Both the position numbers and the translations under genes were made by a program. Positions 24,636 to 44,876 of a stretch of 50,598 nt of DNA are shown one piece after another. Under the pieces are notes generated by a model. It was not told the origin of the DNA and made no database searches. It saw nothing but the letters and a program-made list of their open reading frames with translations. How positions within the stretch are numbered: position 1 is the first letter of the stretch; each line of letters begins with the position of its first letter. The DNA lies in NCBI GenBank assembly GCA_040880525.1, contig JBBDIG010000004.1, positions 1-50,598 of the forward strand, given 5' to 3'. The stretch is from Bacteroidia bacterium (GTDB lineage Bacteria; Bacteroidota; Bacteroidia; CAILMK01; JBBDIG01).

Positions 24636-25076
24636 ATGAAGAGAATAAATATTCCATTAGAGCTTATAGATATTGAGAATGGCGGGTATCACTGTTTTCT
24701 GAAGGTGAATCTTCATGGAATGGAGCGGCACATGCTGCTGGACACCGGGGCCTCCCGAACCATTTTCGACCTGAGCTTATTACGGTCGCTCCTGGCCCAT
24801 GAGAGTTTTCAGGCTAATGAGGTGAAAGCAACCGGCCTCGGCTCAGCGGAAATTGAGAATTTCGTGGTAAACATTGAGCATATCAAACTGGGCAGACTGG
24901 ATTTGTATGACCTGGAGGTGGGAGCACTGGACCTGGAAATGGTGAACAAGAGCTATAAGGCGCTGGGAATGCAACCCGTATCTGGTGTGATCGGGAGTGA
25001 TCTCCTGATGAGATACCGGGCAGTAATAGATTTTGGCAAGAATAAATTGATGCTCAGGATTTCAAATAGCGAATAA
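24636..25076 (+). CDS. Retropepsin-like aspartic protease domain protein
   Basis: Small single-domain clan AA (retropepsin-like) protein. The active-site motif is MLLDTGASRTIFD with Asp36-Thr-Gly, followed by the flap-like region (VKATGLGSAEIENFVV) and a second hydrophobic-Gly block GVIGSDLLMRYRAVIDF. That is the usual layout of bacterial 'aspartyl protease family' proteins of about 140-150 residues, which act as homodimers because one DTG is present per chain. No signal peptide is seen, so it is probably cytoplasmic. The start is directly after a stem-loop; translation begins without an obvious Shine-Dalgarno sequence. Substrate unknown. Confidence 0.82.
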   Translation: MKRINIPLELIDIENGGYHCFLKVNLHGMERHMLLDTGASRTIFDLSLLRSLLAHESFQANEVKATGLGSAEIENFVVNIEHIKLGRLDLYDLEVGALDLEMVNKSYKALGMQPVSGVIGSDLLMRYRAVIDFGKNKLMLRISNSE

Positions 25077-25727: not shown

Positions 25728-26159
25728 ATGAAAATCTTACTTTTAACTTTACTATCTGCCATTATTTGCTCAGGGTGCGGAAGCACACAAAAGGGTAATA
25801 ATGGTGCTGCGACATCTCAAACCGAACCGGGGCAAACGGTGCCGGCAAGTGAGGATGTCGTAGTCGTTCAGCAGATGAACGGAACCAGAATACAGGTAGT
25901 GGGGAGCGGCAATATGTGGGTTTCTTATACTGAAACTATAGACGGCTATACGATTCTGCCCAACGAGGATAACCTTTATGAATATGCGGTGCAGGGAAAA
26001 AAAGGAGACCTGAAACCGGGCGGCAGGCTGGCACATGATCCGGATAAACGGGACGCTAAAGAAGAGAAATACATTAAAAGACTCACTCCTCATTTAAGAT
26101 ATAAATCACCTAAACTTGATGAATTACTCGAACGGAAAAATGAATTTGAAAATGACTAA
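25728..26159 (+). CDS. Stand-alone M6-protease prodomain lipoprotein
   Basis: A 143-residue lipoprotein: MKILLLTLLSAIICSGC with Cys17 in lipobox ICSGC, a low-complexity linker, then one domain. That domain matches the propeptide of the protease encoded next: GTRIQVVGSGNMWVSYTETIDGYTI here against GTVLTVIGKGNMALPYTETVDGYTV there, then Y.YA, G.L.P.G..A.D...R and EKYIKRLTPHLR against EKFLTSQTKNLR. The protein ends where the propeptide region would end and has no catalytic domain. The frame is open 31 codons further upstream (to 25635) but without signal-peptide features. Its end overlaps the protease start. I infer a role as chaperone or inhibitor of the protease in trans; no function is known to me. 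Confidence 0.75.
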   Translation: MKILLLTLLSAIICSGCGSTQKGNNGAATSQTEPGQTVPASEDVVVVQQMNGTRIQVVGSGNMWVSYTETIDGYTILPNEDNLYEYAVQGKKGDLKPGGRLAHDPDKRDAKEEKYIKRLTPHLRYKSPKLDELLERKNEFEND

Positions 26160-28500
26160 ATTTTTTACGCTCTTTCTCGCCATAGTTGCATTTACGATAA
26201 ATGCAAAAGCTCAGCATGTTTCCAATTGTGCGGCTTCTCCATACCCTGTAGAGGTTAAGCAACCGGATGGTACAGTCCTCACGGTAATCGGGAAAGGCAA
26301 CATGGCATTGCCCTATACAGAAACGGTGGATGGCTATACCGTGGTAAAGGCGCAAAACGGCTTTTATCATTATGCGGAAAGAAATGAAGACGGCATGTTG
26401 GAGCCTTCAGGCATTGCAGCGACTGACGCTCCGGCAAGAAATATCGAAGCCGAAAAATTCCTTACTTCCCAGACAAAAAACCTACGCCTGAGCAGTGAAA
26501 AAGCAGCAGAAGTATGGCAACAGGAAGAGGGACCTTCGATGGCTCCTCACGATCATGACCATGAGGATGAGCCGGATAATTCGTTTCCTTCAACTGGATC
26601 CAGGAAAATTCTCCTTCTTCTTATTGAATATCCTGATTTACCGGCTACGTATGATGCTTCAGGCTTTGATGACTTAATGAACAAGGAAAACTTTAACGGC
26701 ACTGGCAGTTTCCGGGATTATTATCTTCAGATCAGTCAGAATGAGCTGGATCTCAGCGTGGATGTCATGGGCTGGTACATGGCTAAGAATGATCATTCGC
26801 ACTATGCACGCAACAATCCTGACTACAATAATAATGTACGCGCGCTGGTTGCCGAGGCAGTAGATTCAGCCGAAGCTGAAGGGGTTGATTTTTCTGAATA
26901 TGATAATGATGGGGATGGGGAAGTTGATGGCGTTTTTATCGTTCATTCCGGCCAGGGTGCCGAAGAAGGTTCGCAGCTTGATTATGTATGGTCTCACCGC
27001 TGGTCATTGAATGGCAGTAACAGGCGTACCTATGACGGAGTGAAGATCAGGGACTATGTGATCAATCCTGAAACCCGCGTATCAGGTGGAAAAAGGATGA
27101 CCGGCATCGGTGTTTTCTGCCATGAATTTGGCCACCTGCTCCAGTTACCGGATCTCTATGATACAGATAATAGTTCTAAGGGCATTGGGCGCTGGTGCCT
27201 TATGGCAGGAGGAAGCTGGCTCAACAAGGAGAAAACCCCGGCAATGATGTCAGCATGGTGCCGGGAAAGATTGGGATGGATAGAACCGGAAGTGATCTCC
27301 GCAAATGGTGCATACATGCTTGATCCTGCAAGCTCAAGCCACACCAGCTATAAGATACTGACAAGCGATCCGGATGAATATTTCCTTCTGGAAAACAGGC
27401 AAAAAAGGGATTATGATGGTGCATTGCCAGGAAGCGGCCTCGCAATCTGGCACATTAATAATGTCAAAGCATCTTTGTATCCCGGATCAAATACTGTTAA
27501 TACGGATGAAAATTTTAAGGGAATTGATCTTGAAGAAGCGGATGGAGGCGATGACCTGGACAATGACAGAAACAGCGGAGATGCTGGTGACCTCTTTCCC
27601 GGAACATCTGGCAATACCTCATTTACCACTACCACTTTCCCGAATTCAAATTTTTATAGTGGAGAAAGCAGTGGAGTTACGATCGTGAATATTGAAGAAT
27701 TGACTGACAGTACCATAATATTCTTCGTAGGCCAAAAGCCCAATGCTAATTTTACAATTCCTGCTAATAACTATTGTACGGGTGAAGAGGTGACGTTTAC
27801 AAACCTGTCCCAGTTCTCTGACGGATTTATCTGGGATTTTGGGGATGGTAATACCGATACAGCCAGGGACCTGAGTTATACATTCACGCAAGGAGGGAGT
27901 TATTACATAAAACTTAAAGCTTTTAATGCTGAAGGATTTGAAAACACTGACTCTGTGCTTGTCCATATTTATGATATTCCTGTTGCCGAATTTAGTGCAA
28001 GTGCTAATGGACTTGCCATAACGGTAGAATATACGGGGGATCACGGAACTGACTTTACCTGGGACTTTGGGGATGGTACCTCACCGCGCGTTACCAATCT
28101 TAAAAAATATACTTATACTTATGACAGCACCGGATTTTATACTATTCAACTAACAGTCAGAAATCAGGGCGGTTGCTCGGCCAACGGTGGTAAAGGTATC
28201 TCCGCATTTCACGTAGGCATAGATGAATTCACGGATGTTACTGATATTACTACTGCCTGGCCGAACCCGGTGAGTGAGACACTCAACGTCAGGTACAATA
28301 TGGGTGTAGCTGGAAATGTAAAGCTGGAACTGATTAACATGACAGGCCAGGTAGTTTATAGCCGGAATACCTCCAGGGCTTCCGGGCAGCATACTGAGAG
28401 CTTACATCTCAATTCTCAGCAAGTACAGCCTGGAATTTACTTGCTGCGCATTGAGGCCAATGGCGAACGGAAGATGCTCAAAATAAACAAGAGAAACTGA
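26140..28500 (+). CDS. Secreted M6-family metalloprotease with PKD domains and T9SS sorting domain
   Basis: Zinc endopeptidase of the immune-inhibitor-A-like M6 group, predicted to be exported by the type IX system. Order: signal peptide (MNLKMTKFFTLFLAIVAF, cleavage near AKA); propeptide (about 30-125); acidic/His linker (HDHDHEDEPD); catalytic domain with DNDGDGEVDGVFIVHSGQGAEEG and the zinc motif HEFGHLLQLPDLYD (His328, Glu329, His332); two PKD domains (about 534-615 and 616-684, each with WDFGDG); and a C-terminal type A sorting domain (about 706-786, WPNPVSETLNVRY ... GIYLLRIEANGERKMLKI). Starts at 26116 and 26152 are also possible; all overlap the end of the prodomain lipoprotein gene, implying coupling. 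A strong terminator follows. Confidence 0.92.
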   Translation: MNLKMTKFFTLFLAIVAFTINAKAQHVSNCAASPYPVEVKQPDGTVLTVIGKGNMALPYTETVDGYTVVKAQNGFYHYAERNEDGMLEPSGIAATDAPARNIEAEKFLTSQTKNLRLSSEKAAEVWQQEEGPSMAPHDHDHEDEPDNSFPSTGSRKILLLLIEYPDLPATYDASGFDDLMNKENFNGTGSFRDYYLQISQNELDLSVDVMGWYMAKNDHSHYARNNPDYNNNVRALVAEAVDSAEAEGVDFSEYDNDGDGEVDGVFIVHSGQGAEEGSQLDYVWSHRWSLNGSNRRTYDGVKIRDYVINPETRVSGGKRMTGIGVFCHEFGHLLQLPDLYDTDNSSKGIGRWCLMAGGSWLNKEKTPAMMSAWCRERLGWIEPEVISANGAYMLDPASSSHTSYKILTSDPDEYFLLENRQKRDYDGALPGSGLAIWHINNVKASLYPGSNTVNTDENFKGIDLEEADGGDDLDNDRNSGDAGDLFPGTSGNTSFTTTTFPNSNFYSGESSGVTIVNIEELTDSTIIFFVGQKPNANFTIPANNYCTGEEVTFTNLSQFSDGFIWDFGDGNTDTARDLSYTFTQGGSYYIKLKAFNAEGFENTDSVLVHIYDIPVAEFSASANGLAITVEYTGDHGTDFTWDFGDGTSPRVTNLKKYTYTYDSTGFYTIQLTVRNQGGCSANGGKGISAFHVGIDEFTDVTDITTAWPNPVSETLNVRYNMGVAGNVKLELINMTGQVVYSRNTSRASGQHTESLHLNSQQVQPGIYLLRIEANGERKMLKINKRN

Positions 28501-28525: not shown

Positions 28526-28552
28526 AAAAACCCCTCCCTCAGAGGGGTTTTT
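28526..28552 (+). terminator. Rho-independent terminator after the M6 protease gene
   Basis: AAAAACCCCTC / GAGGGGTTTTT, a perfect 11-bp stem with a CCTCA loop ending in T5. It lies 26 bases after the protease stop and ends 14 bases before the next start. Its symmetry would allow function on both strands. Confidence 0.88.
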
Positions 28553-32613: not shown

Positions 32614-35415
32614 ATGAAAAATGCAGTACGTTCTGTTCGGGTGATGAGGATAGGAAACATCTTCACACCCAATTGGTCGGCTGGTTCGCATAAAAAGCGA
32701 TCGGCCTTTTTACCATTTCTCCTCATGCTTTTGGGCATGGGAATGTTTTCTGTTCAGGCTAATGCCGCGCACAAATTCTGGTCATCTGATATACAAAATG
32801 GTGATCGTTTCGGCTTTGCCGTAGCCCAGGATGGTTCTGATGCTATCGTGGGGGCACATGGCGAGGATGCTGATGGTAGCAACGCTGGTGCTGCTTACGT
32901 CTTCTCCTTTGACGGAACCAGCTATGTACAAGAAGACAAACTAACAGCAGGAGCCGATGGCGCTCCTAATGACAAGTTTGGTTGGGCGGTAGACATTAGT
33001 GGCGATTATGCTATTGTTGGTGCCCCTTATGAAAACGACAAAGGTTTCGGAACCGGGGTCGCTTACATTTTCGAGCGTGTTGGTGGCGTCTGGAGCAAAG
33101 TGGCAACACTTCGCCCTGGAGACTTAAAGAAAGGCCACTTCTTTGGCTATAGTGTAGCCATTTCAGGTGACTATGCAATTGTCGGAGCATTAGGGGATGA
33201 TGACATGGGTGATCAGTCAGGTACAGCCTATGTTTATGAATTAAGCGGAGGCTCCTGGACTTTTTTAGAAAAAATCTATGCAGACGATGCCGGACCAAAT
33301 GACTACTTCGGATTTTCAGTTGACATTGACGGTGATTACGCTGTAGTAGGCGCACACCGGAATGATGATGATGGCTTGAATTCGGGTTCTGCGTATGTCT
33401 ATCACCTTATGAGTGGTTCTTTTACTCAACAGGCTGAGCTGACTGCTTCTGATGCAATGCCACTTGATTCCTTTGGATATCAGGTTGCTATTTCAGGAGA
33501 AAGAGTAATAGTAGGTGCTCCTGGTGTTGATGACGTTGCTTCTAATGCAGGCGCAGCTTATGTATTTCACAGAAGCGGATCTAGCTGGGGAGAAGAAGAC
33601 AAATTGACTGCTTCAGATGGTGAAGCAGACGATTATTTCGGCTGGTCAGTAGCCATCTCCGGTCCTTCAGCAATGATAGGTGCCTGGGGAGATGATGATG
33701 CCGGACACCTGCAAGGTGCGGCTTATAGCTTTGCCCGTTCTGGTGCAAGCTGGCTGGAGCAGGATAAATTTGTTGAAGGCGGGGCAGGCATTTCTATGCA
33801 AAATCTCGGATTTGATGTCTCCATTGCAGGTGATTATGCAATGGCTGGTGCTAAGGGTGATGACGAAATGGGTCCCAACTCTGGCGCTGCATTCTTCTAC
33901 AAAGTCAATGAAGGCGTTACTTGTCTCATCGCCAGTAACGGTGATTCTTTTGACCGTTTAGGACATTCCGTTGACATTAACGGAGATTGGGCTATTGCAG
34001 GGGCACATACAGATGAAACTTCTGCTACTATTCCCACAGCAGGTTCTGCTTACATTTATATGAGAAGCGGGTTAACCTGGAGCGAAGATGCGAACATTAC
34101 TCCTTCTGATCCTGCAACCGGAGACCGTTTTGGCTGGTCAGTTGGCATTGATGGCGACTACGCTGTAGTTGGCGCGCCCAACAAGACCGTATCAGGTTTG
34201 ACAATAGCCGGTGCTGTTTATGTTTTCCGGAATGATGGCGGCTCCTGGACACAAATTCAGAAGCTGACTGCACCAACTCCTAAAGGTGGTGACTTCTATG
34301 GTTACAATGTGAAAATTCATGGGGATTATATCATCGTTGGCGCGTTGGGAGATGATGACGAAGGAACGCAAGCCGGTGCAGCATATATTTATGTACTGGA
34401 TGATCCTACCACCTTTGTATTGCAGCAGAAAATAGTTGCTGCTGATGCTGTTGAAAACGATTATTTCGGCCAATCAGTAGATATCTATGGCTCTGACGTT
34501 GTAGTTGGTGCTCCGAAAAAGGATTCTGATGAAGGTGCTGCTTATGTTTTTACCCGCTCTGGTACTACCTGGACGCAGGAAGAAAAGCTCGTTGCATCTG
34601 ACGGTGCTGCTGGCGATTCTCTCGCATGGTCTGTAGCTATTGCTCCTGACTATGTAAATCTTGGTGCACCGGGTGAAGAAGCCGCCTATGTGTATCACAG
34701 AAGTGCTGGTTCATGGGGAACTGAGCAGGAAAAACTTACTGCCTCCGATGCTGCTCCAAACGATCAATTCGGATGGGCTGTAGGAATTACCACCAGCATT
34801 GCTGTGGTTGGCGCATTCCGTGATGATGATTCTCATACAAATACAGGTTCGGCCTATATTTATAGAAGAAGCCTCTCAACATGGTCAGAGGATGTGAAAT
34901 TGGTTGATATGTCGCCAAACGAAAACGAGCAATTCGGACGTGCCGTTTCAATTAGCGAAAGCACTGCTATGATCGGAATTCCTTTCGACATCAATGCAAA
35001 TGGTGCTGAAGCCGGTGGTGTTTGCTTTTACCGCCTGCCTACAGGTTCTCCAATGTTAGTTCCTAACAAGGAGCTTACTGCCCTGGAATCAATTGAAGGA
35101 AATGATGTTCAGCAGGCTCCAACAGAAACGATTCAAATTCAAGAATCAAATGCTGTTCAGCCTTTAGATGCTGTACTCTATCCGAATCCTTCCAATGGTA
35201 TTGTAACTGTTGAATTCACCATGTCTTCTGTAACGCCTGCTAATCTCCAGGTGTTGAATATGGCCGGACAAGTGGTTTATTCTTCCAGCAACATTCAGGT
35301 TGAAGGTTTTGCGACAGAGCGCATTAATCTCTCACACCTGACCAATGGTGTTTACCTCGTTAACATTAACAATGGAGAAGAGCAAATCGTAAGAAAGCTC
35401 ATCCTGAATAAATAA
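32614..35415 (+). CDS. Secreted FG-GAP repeat protein with T9SS sorting domain
   Basis: Large extracellular repeat protein, 933 residues. After a long basic leader and hydrophobic signal (about 30-50, ending VQANA) come 14 FG-GAP repeats of about 50-58 residues (about residues 60-810). Each has the pattern (D)xFGxSVxIxGDYAxVGAxxDDxxxxxxGAAYVY. Acidic loops such as GDDDMGDQSG resemble integrin calcium sites. Repeats 11 and 12 have shortened loops. Fourteen repeats would fit two seven-bladed propellers. The C-terminal type A sorting domain (LYPNPSNGIVTVEF ... NGVYLVNINNGEEQIVRKLIL) predicts T9SS export and surface anchoring. A strong terminator follows. Probable adhesion or matrix role, inferred only; an alternative start exists at the Met 10 codons in. 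Confidence 0.92.
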   Translation: MKNAVRSVRVMRIGNIFTPNWSAGSHKKRSAFLPFLLMLLGMGMFSVQANAAHKFWSSDIQNGDRFGFAVAQDGSDAIVGAHGEDADGSNAGAAYVFSFDGTSYVQEDKLTAGADGAPNDKFGWAVDISGDYAIVGAPYENDKGFGTGVAYIFERVGGVWSKVATLRPGDLKKGHFFGYSVAISGDYAIVGALGDDDMGDQSGTAYVYELSGGSWTFLEKIYADDAGPNDYFGFSVDIDGDYAVVGAHRNDDDGLNSGSAYVYHLMSGSFTQQAELTASDAMPLDSFGYQVAISGERVIVGAPGVDDVASNAGAAYVFHRSGSSWGEEDKLTASDGEADDYFGWSVAISGPSAMIGAWGDDDAGHLQGAAYSFARSGASWLEQDKFVEGGAGISMQNLGFDVSIAGDYAMAGAKGDDEMGPNSGAAFFYKVNEGVTCLIASNGDSFDRLGHSVDINGDWAIAGAHTDETSATIPTAGSAYIYMRSGLTWSEDANITPSDPATGDRFGWSVGIDGDYAVVGAPNKTVSGLTIAGAVYVFRNDGGSWTQIQKLTAPTPKGGDFYGYNVKIHGDYIIVGALGDDDEGTQAGAAYIYVLDDPTTFVLQQKIVAADAVENDYFGQSVDIYGSDVVVGAPKKDSDEGAAYVFTRSGTTWTQEEKLVASDGAAGDSLAWSVAIAPDYVNLGAPGEEAAYVYHRSAGSWGTEQEKLTASDAAPNDQFGWAVGITTSIAVVGAFRDDDSHTNTGSAYIYRRSLSTWSEDVKLVDMSPNENEQFGRAVSISESTAMIGIPFDINANGAEAGGVCFYRLPTGSPMLVPNKELTALESIEGNDVQQAPTETIQIQESNAVQPLDAVLYPNPSNGIVTVEFTMSSVTPANLQVLNMAGQVVYSSSNIQVEGFATERINLSHLTNGVYLVNINNGEEQIVRKLILNK

Positions 35416-43277: not shown

Positions 43278-44876
43278 ATGAAGTGCCTTATTCAGATTAA
43301 AATTTTTTGTCTGGTTCTTTTTTCCGGTATTCTTAATGGCCAAACACTCAGTACTGACCTCGTGAATTTTGGAGAAGTGGAAACAGGAGCGCCTGATAGT
43401 TTTGAAGTAGTGCTCACCAACAATACTTCCGATGACCTTGACGTGCAGCGTCTGATCAGTTTACAACTGGAATTTCAGGTGATGGATACCGCGCTGACGA
43501 TTACTCCCTCAGATAATTATAGCTTTTGGATCCGGTTCGCCCCGCGCCATAATATCTCATACAACTCCGAGATTATACTGGACCTGGCAGGGCCGCACGG
43601 CACCTTGCCGGTGGACGTTCGCGGAGTGGGTAAATATCCCGGCACTTACTACAGCAGCACGCAGAACCTTTCAGAGGAACCATTGAAGAGTGCATTGAAA
43701 ACGCTGATTTCTGGCCATACATCCTTCAGCTACAATGTGGCGAGGGATAAGATGTATATGGAAATTGACAATCAGCGGGTAAACGGCCAGGGAGCCAGCA
43801 GTAATACGCTGGAATGCGTGTATACCGGGCGATTGGCTGTGGGCTATAACAACCGCATAGATGCCCAGAATAATTACAACTTTAATACGGAGCATACCTT
43901 TCCCCAGAGCCTTTTCAACAGCCAGGAACCGATGCGGACTGACCTGTTCCACTTATTCCCCACGGATGTTGGCGCGAATTCAGAGCGCGGCAACAAGCCC
44001 TTTGGCAACGTAAGCAATCCTTCCTGGAATGTGGGCGGATCGCAAAGCAACAGCACTGCGTTTGAACCGAGAGACGAGCAGAAAGGCGCTTCTGCACGGG
44101 CATTGTTTTATTTTGTCATTAGATACCAGGACTACAGCAATTTTGTGCAACCGCAGGAAACCGTGCTGCGCGAGTGGGCAGCCAGCTTTCCACCGGATGA
44201 AGCGGAAAAACAGCGCAACGAGGATATTTTTACTGAGCAGAAAAACCGGAATCCGTTCATAGATCATCCTGAATTTCTGAAGCGAATTCAGCGGATTTCC
44301 GGGACTTCCACCGCACCGGTTGTGATAGAAGCATTGCCAGCCGAAGACACCATTGATCTTGGGGGAGTGCTGGTGGACTCAACGGCTCCGTATCGGTTTC
44401 ACCTTTATGCCGGTGGAAACAGCGACCTCACCATCAGCAACGCGCAGTTTGATCAGCCGGGCTTTACGATGTTGTCCTCTGCAGGCTCCATTTCGCCCGG
44501 AGAGGTTGGCGTTTTCGTTTTTCACTATACTCCAACTGTAAACGGGCAAATAAACGCGACACTGACCCTTACCACCAGCGATCCCGATAATTCTGCGCTG
44601 GATATACCAGTAACCGGACTTGCCGTGATGACGGGCGTTGCAGACAAGAAACACGGGCAGCCGGCCATTTCAATTTCTCAAAGACAATTGAGTATTTCAA
44701 TGCCTGATGCTGCAGAAACGAAAATTGAGATATTTGATCTTTCAGGAAAAATAATTTTTAATTCTACATTTAATCAGTCGTCTATTAATAGTCCTTTCCC
44801 CTTTTCAAGCGGAATTTATTTTTACAGGGCCATCCGGGATCAAAGGATATTTACCGGTAAAATCATTGCGCATTAA
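43278..44876 (+). CDS. Secreted endonuclease I with anchor-D domains and T9SS sorting domain
   Basis: Predicted extracellular DNase, 532 residues. The signal peptide ends near LNGQ. An N-terminal choice-of-anchor-D/ASPM-SPD-2-like domain (about 22-112: VNFGEVETGAPDSFEVVLTNN) precedes the endonuclease I domain (about 115-335). This has NFNTEHTFPQS (Glu205, His206), DLFHLFPTDVGANSERGNKPFG and the EPRDEQKGASARALFYF block. A second anchor-D domain follows (about 350-455), then a type A sorting domain (about 466-532, SISQRQLSISM ... SSGIYFYRAI). The usual D(L/I)HHL motif reads DLFHL (Phe224), an odd change near the metal/active-site region. Probable role: DNA scavenging, inferred from family and export signal. 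Confidence 0.9.
   Translation: MKCLIQIKIFCLVLFSGILNGQTLSTDLVNFGEVETGAPDSFEVVLTNNTSDDLDVQRLISLQLEFQVMDTALTITPSDNYSFWIRFAPRHNISYNSEIILDLAGPHGTLPVDVRGVGKYPGTYYSSTQNLSEEPLKSALKTLISGHTSFSYNVARDKMYMEIDNQRVNGQGASSNTLECVYTGRLAVGYNNRIDAQNNYNFNTEHTFPQSLFNSQEPMRTDLFHLFPTDVGANSERGNKPFGNVSNPSWNVGGSQSNSTAFEPRDEQKGASARALFYFVIRYQDYSNFVQPQETVLREWAASFPPDEAEKQRNEDIFTEQKNRNPFIDHPEFLKRIQRISGTSTAPVVIEALPAEDTIDLGGVLVDSTAPYRFHLYAGGNSDLTISNAQFDQPGFTMLSSAGSISPGEVGVFVFHYTPTVNGQINATLTLTTSDPDNSALDIPVTGLAVMTGVADKKHGQPAISISQRQLSISMPDAAETKIEIFDLSGKIIFNSTFNQSSINSPFPFSSGIYFYRAIRDQRIFTGKIIAH

Follow-up and report, generated by a model that had tools for sequence, protein, structure and literature searches.

A stand-alone copy of an M6 protease prodomain encoded directly upstream of a T9SS-type M6 metalloprotease in Bacteroidota

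Genes at the locus

The window, that is, the whole stretch of 50,598 nucleotides analyzed here, belongs to a Bacteroidota genome of 3.80 Mb that is 98.4% complete. It carries two overlapping genes on the forward (+) strand, to which all coordinates of the pair refer. The first (25728..26159) encodes P0001, a predicted lipoprotein of 143 aa recognized by its homology to an M6 prodomain and by its membership in a family found in five genomes. Throughout this work, "orphan" denotes the stand-alone copy of the M6 prodomain, and "cis prodomain" the N-terminal domain of the protease itself. P0001 comprises a signal peptide with a lipobox-type cysteine, Cys17, predicted from the sequence to be lipidated (25728..25778; IICSG before and GSTQKG after the cysteine), an unstructured tether, and one domain. 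This domain, delimited by AlphaFold2 and alignment, has a prodomain-like fold at residues 43-137 (25854..26138) and ends in HLRY and, further on, LDELLER. The AlphaFold2 model, built from 12 sequences, predicts six beta strands and two helices, with a block pLDDT of 90-98 across most of the domain, and a disordered tether, with model residues 6-18 at pLDDT below 50.

P0001 contains no Pfam domain, its prodomain-like domain obtained no meaningful Pfam or NCBIfam score, and the same domain searches detected no T9SS C-terminal sorting domain in the orphan. Likewise, a profile search with the orphan found no relative among PDB sequences, and no solved structure resembling the model was identified (best Foldseek E 0.93; VIA-align 2, no Z ≥ 2). 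A role as a defense-system protein was also considered and rejected, as PADLOC gave no match.

The second gene (26140..28500) encodes P0002, a T9SS-type M6 metalloprotease precursor of 786 aa whose Pfam and NCBIfam domains follow the order signal peptide, N-terminal domain, M6 catalytic domain, two PKD domains, and T9SS type A tail. Its assignment to M6 is based on Peptidase_M6 (PF05547, 7.6e-28) and TIGR03296 (9.7e-74; 248.8 bits against a cut-off of 110.8), the latter profile matching the catalytic domain at 26617..27453. In the alignment, the catalytic residues of the zinc site HEFGHLLQLPD (residues 328-338; 27121..27153) are intact, including the HExxH motif of the family, present as HEFGH at residues 328-332. 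Directly after the signal peptide lies an SNCxxxP segment, as identified by alignment, with the codon of Cys30 at 26227..26229; the part of the cis prodomain homologous to the orphan was delimited by BLASTP at residues 32-129 (26233..26526). The PKD domains found with Pfam occupy residues 533-606 and 634-680 (27736..28179), and the type A sorting domain identified by Pfam and NCBIfam spans 28258..28491. The preliminary description of this DNA had regarded the protease as T9SS-exported, in agreement with this tail (Por_Secre_tail, 3e-11) and with the presence of SprA_N in the genome; SprA was found in every orphan-bearing host. A terminator-like hairpin at 28526..28552, with no strand assigned and recognized by consensus match only, is probably the end of the two-gene unit. 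The AlphaFold2 model of the M6 precursor, obtained from seven sequences of which one is truncated, reached a mean pLDDT of 52, and its catalytic domain was unusable for docking.

P0001 and the N-terminal domain of P0002 share 39% identity over 98 gap-free residues (BLASTP, E 5e-20), and the alignment spans the GNMxxxYTETxDGYT block, the Y-YA block, and the LR-containing end, all shared elements to which the preliminary description had pointed. When P0001 was compared with the whole genome, only P0001 itself and the prodomain of P0002 gave meaningful scores, which excludes chance similarity. The lipoprotein, having no other domain, can therefore be described, as originally proposed, as essentially the N-terminal domain of the next protein: a stand-alone propeptide-like protein in the sense of a free homologue of the protease's own prodomain. 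That this N-terminal domain is a propeptide removed from the mature enzyme is suggested by its position and by analogy with the M6 enzyme PrtV, which loses its N-terminal part and is secreted in forms beginning at residue 106 (PMC2613228).

Other genes in the window deserve mention in their own right. Two genes upstream of the pair, positions 24636-25076 encode a small single-domain retropepsin-like aspartyl protease (Asp_protease_2, E 2.6e-9) with no evident signal peptide. Adjoining, similar lipoproteins of about 150 aa with the look of a tandem duplication are encoded at 24-482 and 756-1217. A protein of 933 aa with 14 FG-GAP repeats and a T9SS tail is found at 32614-35415, and at 43278-44876 a probably secreted nuclease, whose Endonuclease I domain is placed between Ig-like domains and whose match to a T9SS tail is weak.

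Gene coupling and recurrence

The overlap of the two genes, also part of the preliminary description, measures 20 nt when counted from the first ATG of the M6 gene (ORF coordinates 26140..26159), or 8 nt if the alternative in-frame ATG at 26152 is the start. The arrangement recurs. Among 12 genomes of the order, the orphan is present in the window genome and in three others, and a fifth orphan/M6 pair occurs in a genome of another order (G028). The search for stand-alone copies beside M6 genes in other Bacteroidota, which the preliminary description had named as a check, thus yielded four more genomes; the orphan lies upstream of the M6 gene in all five pairs, with overlaps of 20 or 8 (window), 4, 4, and 11 nt in four of them; in G028, the two genes all but touch (about 0 nt). 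In the latter genome, the end of a gene for a TPR-like protein overlaps the start of the orphan (L012:3-1046), and the unit there may consist of three genes. A contig search with P0001 alone as the query returned no matches, and one with the orphan alignment again detected the four known pairs, along with two M6 genes that lack an orphan.

The relative frame of the overlap varies between genomes, which indicates coupling rather than a conserved frameshift; on these grounds, a programmed frameshift fusing the orphan and the protease was rejected. Outside the pair, the gene neighborhood differs among the window, G001, and G004, and in G001 both neighbors lie on the opposite strand, so that the pair forms a two-gene unit. 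Regarding the possible target, a single M6 gene above the TIGR03296 cut-off was found in each of G000, G001, G004, and G028; the lone copy in G002, cut by a contig end, scores below that cut-off, and the window genome contains one additional sub-threshold match. With one recognizable M6 gene per paired genome, the adjoining protease is the likely target of the orphan.

Lipidation and location

A lipobox is found in the window orphan only, the other four having plain signal peptides as judged by eye. Export of lipoproteins to the surface is directed by acidic residues just after the cysteine, signals of which several kinds have been described in Capnocytophaga, Bacteroides, and Flavobacterium (PMC5080379). 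In the window orphan, the segment CGSTQKGNNGAATSQTE has no acidic residues nearby after the cysteine and so carries no such signal, as defined in those other Bacteroidota, although this may not be the signal of the present lineage. The sequence therefore suggests that the window lipoprotein probably faces the periplasm. With no surface-export signal and a lipobox unique to the window copy, the family agrees more readily with a guard in the periplasm than with an inhibitor on the surface. Hence, the earlier idea of a lipoprotein kept on the producer's envelope is not supported for the family, in which lipidation is no general feature.

Distribution and origin of free-standing copies

In 395 genomes of the class, the domain was detected in 26 and a free-standing copy in six, corresponding to the five pairs and G299. 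In two further families, it appeared without any free-standing copy: in f14, 36 of the 64 genomes have the domain, always as one match per genome and in a frame of at least 307 aa, and in f37 it occurs in 14 of 46, where the one short frame, of 278 aa, is located close to the beginning of a contig. Similarly, the M6 gene of LF-bin-98 has no orphan beside it. In a tree of the catalytic domains, the enzymes of f14 and f37 are interspersed with those accompanied by an orphan; the orphan was therefore either present in the ancestor, with later losses, or acquired repeatedly. The order's four orphans group together with support (97/90), and a single origin of the five paired orphans, G028 included, was not rejected (AU p 0.31). 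A single origin of all free-standing copies was rejected when G299 was added (AU p 0.007).

The G299 copy (L081:5226-5861) lies between ispF-like and topoisomerase-like genes, unlinked to M6, in a genome with three M6 genes elsewhere, and comes from a lineage distinct from that of the paired orphans. G638, a distantly related genome of the phylum, encodes three proteins of 163, 160, and 321 aa (L079:3094-3582, L079:5189-5668, and L077:1675-2637, respectively) in which the prodomain leads nearly straight into a T9SS-like C-terminal tail and the catalytic domain is missing. The two short ones are near-identical neighbors. These proteins may be what is left after deletions, or they may be free prodomains that are exported.

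Sequence constraint

Within the order, the core domain is 42-67% identical among orphans versus 31-41% among the cis prodomains of the same genomes, and orphans are the more similar in all six genome pairs. For instance, between G001 and G002 the orphans are 67% and the cis prodomains 37% identical (Fisher p 5e-5), with 58% identity over the first 168 catalytic residues. Likewise, orphans have lower dN values than cis prodomains in 6 of 6 pairs, which are non-independent; dN/dS is not quoted because dS is saturated. Being better conserved than the cis prodomain, the orphan is not a decaying duplicate. This bears on the view that it is a functionless remnant of duplication, for which one may cite the free copies that arise elsewhere with no M6 neighbor (G299) or as apparent deletion products (G638). 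Set against this conservation, the coupled starts, and the reading frames and signal peptides that stay intact in five genomes of two orders, we consider a remnant highly improbable.

Conservation of the C-terminal HLRY helix region is higher in orphans than in cis copies, and this part contains positions conserved specifically in orphans, including P97, P105, H122, and R124. Such positions could be explained by a regulatory or structural partner, with the orphan binding elsewhere than on the active-site face; its prodomain fold would then serve to bind, for example, the T9SS machinery, the processing protease, or another envelope protein. We judge this distinctly unlikely, as the linkage to the M6 gene in every pair and the prodomain core common to both proteins point to the protease instead.

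The cysteine of the cis prodomain

The SNCxxxP cysteine, Cys30 in P0002, is present in 19 of 19 related M6 proteins, and no second cysteine column in the prodomain and catalytic domain is common to all 19. It is not universal in the wider family, since the Bacteroidales-type M6 proteins (G299, yak, and G231) and G255 are also devoid of it. By analogy with promirolysin, in which residues of the N-terminal pro-segment position a cysteine on the zinc (PMC6949602), Cys30 is a candidate zinc-binding cysteine switch. In the alignment, none of the orphans has a cysteine at this position, and the putative latency element is thus missing from them. A copied zinc-blocking mechanism is therefore unlikely for the orphan. 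In InhA2, latency is reportedly achieved by the alpha-amino group of the propeptide N-terminus on the zinc.

The loss of the putative zinc-reaching segment, together with retention of both the folded core and the HLRY helix region at the C-terminal end, would suit a pure folding or export escort, in which the orphan acts as a periplasmic in-trans foldase for the M6 catalytic domain and inhibition is incidental; its position as the first gene of the pair also agrees with this role. After duplication, the cis copy would have kept latency through its cysteine and evolved fast, and the trans copy would have kept folding and evolved slowly. However, M6 proteins without an orphan presumably fold by means of the cis domain alone, and we know of no foldase for M6 enzymes, so we regard a pure escort as rather unlikely.

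Proposed function

We favor a propeptide-like guard or inhibitor acting in trans, mixed guard and escort action included, and put its chances at about even. We infer that the orphan would reach the periplasm, membrane-anchored in the window genome, and would bind and inhibit the protease, which would itself cross the outer membrane via the T9SS. The orphan would bind M6 molecules that are misfolded or prematurely stripped of their own prodomain, at the position the cis prodomain would take up, and would hold them inactive or export-competent until they exit the cell. Inhibition would be expected through covering of the cleft or an exosite, not through a cysteine switch: because the orphan has no candidate zinc-binding cysteine, steric covering or folding help is likelier than zinc blocking.

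Counted in favor of the guard are the homology to the neighbor's prodomain, the coupling in every pair, the sequence constraint, export without a T9SS tail, the T9SS of the hosts, and the precedents of SpeB-Spi, in which the propeptide analogue backs up the zymogen, of the potempins, and of the gingipain propeptides; the guard would act much as Spi and the potempins do. Counted against it are the protease's own cis prodomain, which should fill the same site, the invariant cysteine missing in all orphans, and the many relatives with no orphan (the f14 and f37 genomes and LF-bin-98). Accordingly, the in-trans inhibitor or chaperone of the preliminary description gains from recurrence, coupling, constraint, and a gene order also seen in Tannerella forsythia, and loses from the missing cysteine. 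To say that the orphan restrains the enzyme on the envelope as a propeptide does is too simple, since lipidation is not general and both the export signal and the cysteine are absent.

A further reading, which we put forward as speculative and rather improbable, is that the duplicated prodomain split its labor, with a fast-evolving cysteine-switch latency element in cis and a slowly evolving periplasmic foldase or guard without zinc contact in trans. If true, this would constitute a two-component prodomain for a T9SS metalloprotease. To our knowledge, the means by which Bacteroidota protect themselves from proteases crossing their periplasm are known in detail for few systems. The orphan/M6 pair represents a small, one-to-one, testable case of such self-protection, and a natural experiment in which the portion of a prodomain that serves folding or docking, retained in trans, is separated from a possible latency element present in cis only.

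Comparison with known systems

A stand-alone propeptide beside a protease is known from other families; for M6, it is apparently undescribed in the open-access literature searched, which is not a complete survey and in which we found no earlier description of a stand-alone M6 prodomain, including for InhA-type M6 enzymes and PrtV. These belong to the same catalytic family, the M6 profile matching Bacillus InhA (PDB 4yu5) with E 1.2e-36, mostly in the catalytic part. However, that profile aligns to 4yu5 only from the prodomain end onward (profile 75-349) and leaves most of the N-terminal beta domain unmatched, so that the InhA propeptide cannot be recognized as the same domain. Promirolysin of T. 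forsythia resembles the cis prodomain in its N-terminal pro-segment with a cysteine, as proposed for Cys30, but it belongs to another metalloprotease family with a solved structure, whereas the role of the M6 cysteine is proposed by analogy and the orphan has none.

Free propeptide folds also occur among the MEROPS I9 subtilisin propeptide-like inhibitors (SUB1-ProM and TgMIC5), and SUB1-ProM is encoded beside protease genes; these, however, are eukaryotic propeptides of serine proteases with a different fold. Isolated gingipain propeptides inhibit their enzymes in trans, with Ki values of 12 nM and 2 uM (PMC3677877).

In T. forsythia, a small lipoprotein gene lies directly upstream of every KLIKK protease gene (PMC4404884), and these lipoproteins, the potempins, were described, from results then unpublished, as inhibitors of the protease expressed with them (PMC7296668). 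The window shows the same order, with a small exported lipoprotein gene immediately before a T9SS protease gene; four of the five orphans have no evident lipobox. Moreover, the six T. forsythia lipoprotein ORFs have no significant mutual similarity (PMC4404884), whereas the orphan corresponds to the prodomain of the protease beside it, and the part of that literature considered here does not name M6 among the KLIKK proteases. We therefore do not assign the orphan to the potempins; the likeness is one of gene order and, in the window, lipidation.

The SpeB-Spi system of Streptococcus pyogenes differs in being Gram-positive, in its cysteine protease (C10 streptopain) of another fold and unrelated sequence, and in that inhibition by Spi has been described experimentally, whereas for the M6 pair it is proposed. 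Its organization is nevertheless similar to the one described here: a zymogen with its own cis propeptide has a propeptide analogue encoded as a free gene next to it (PMC2873492).
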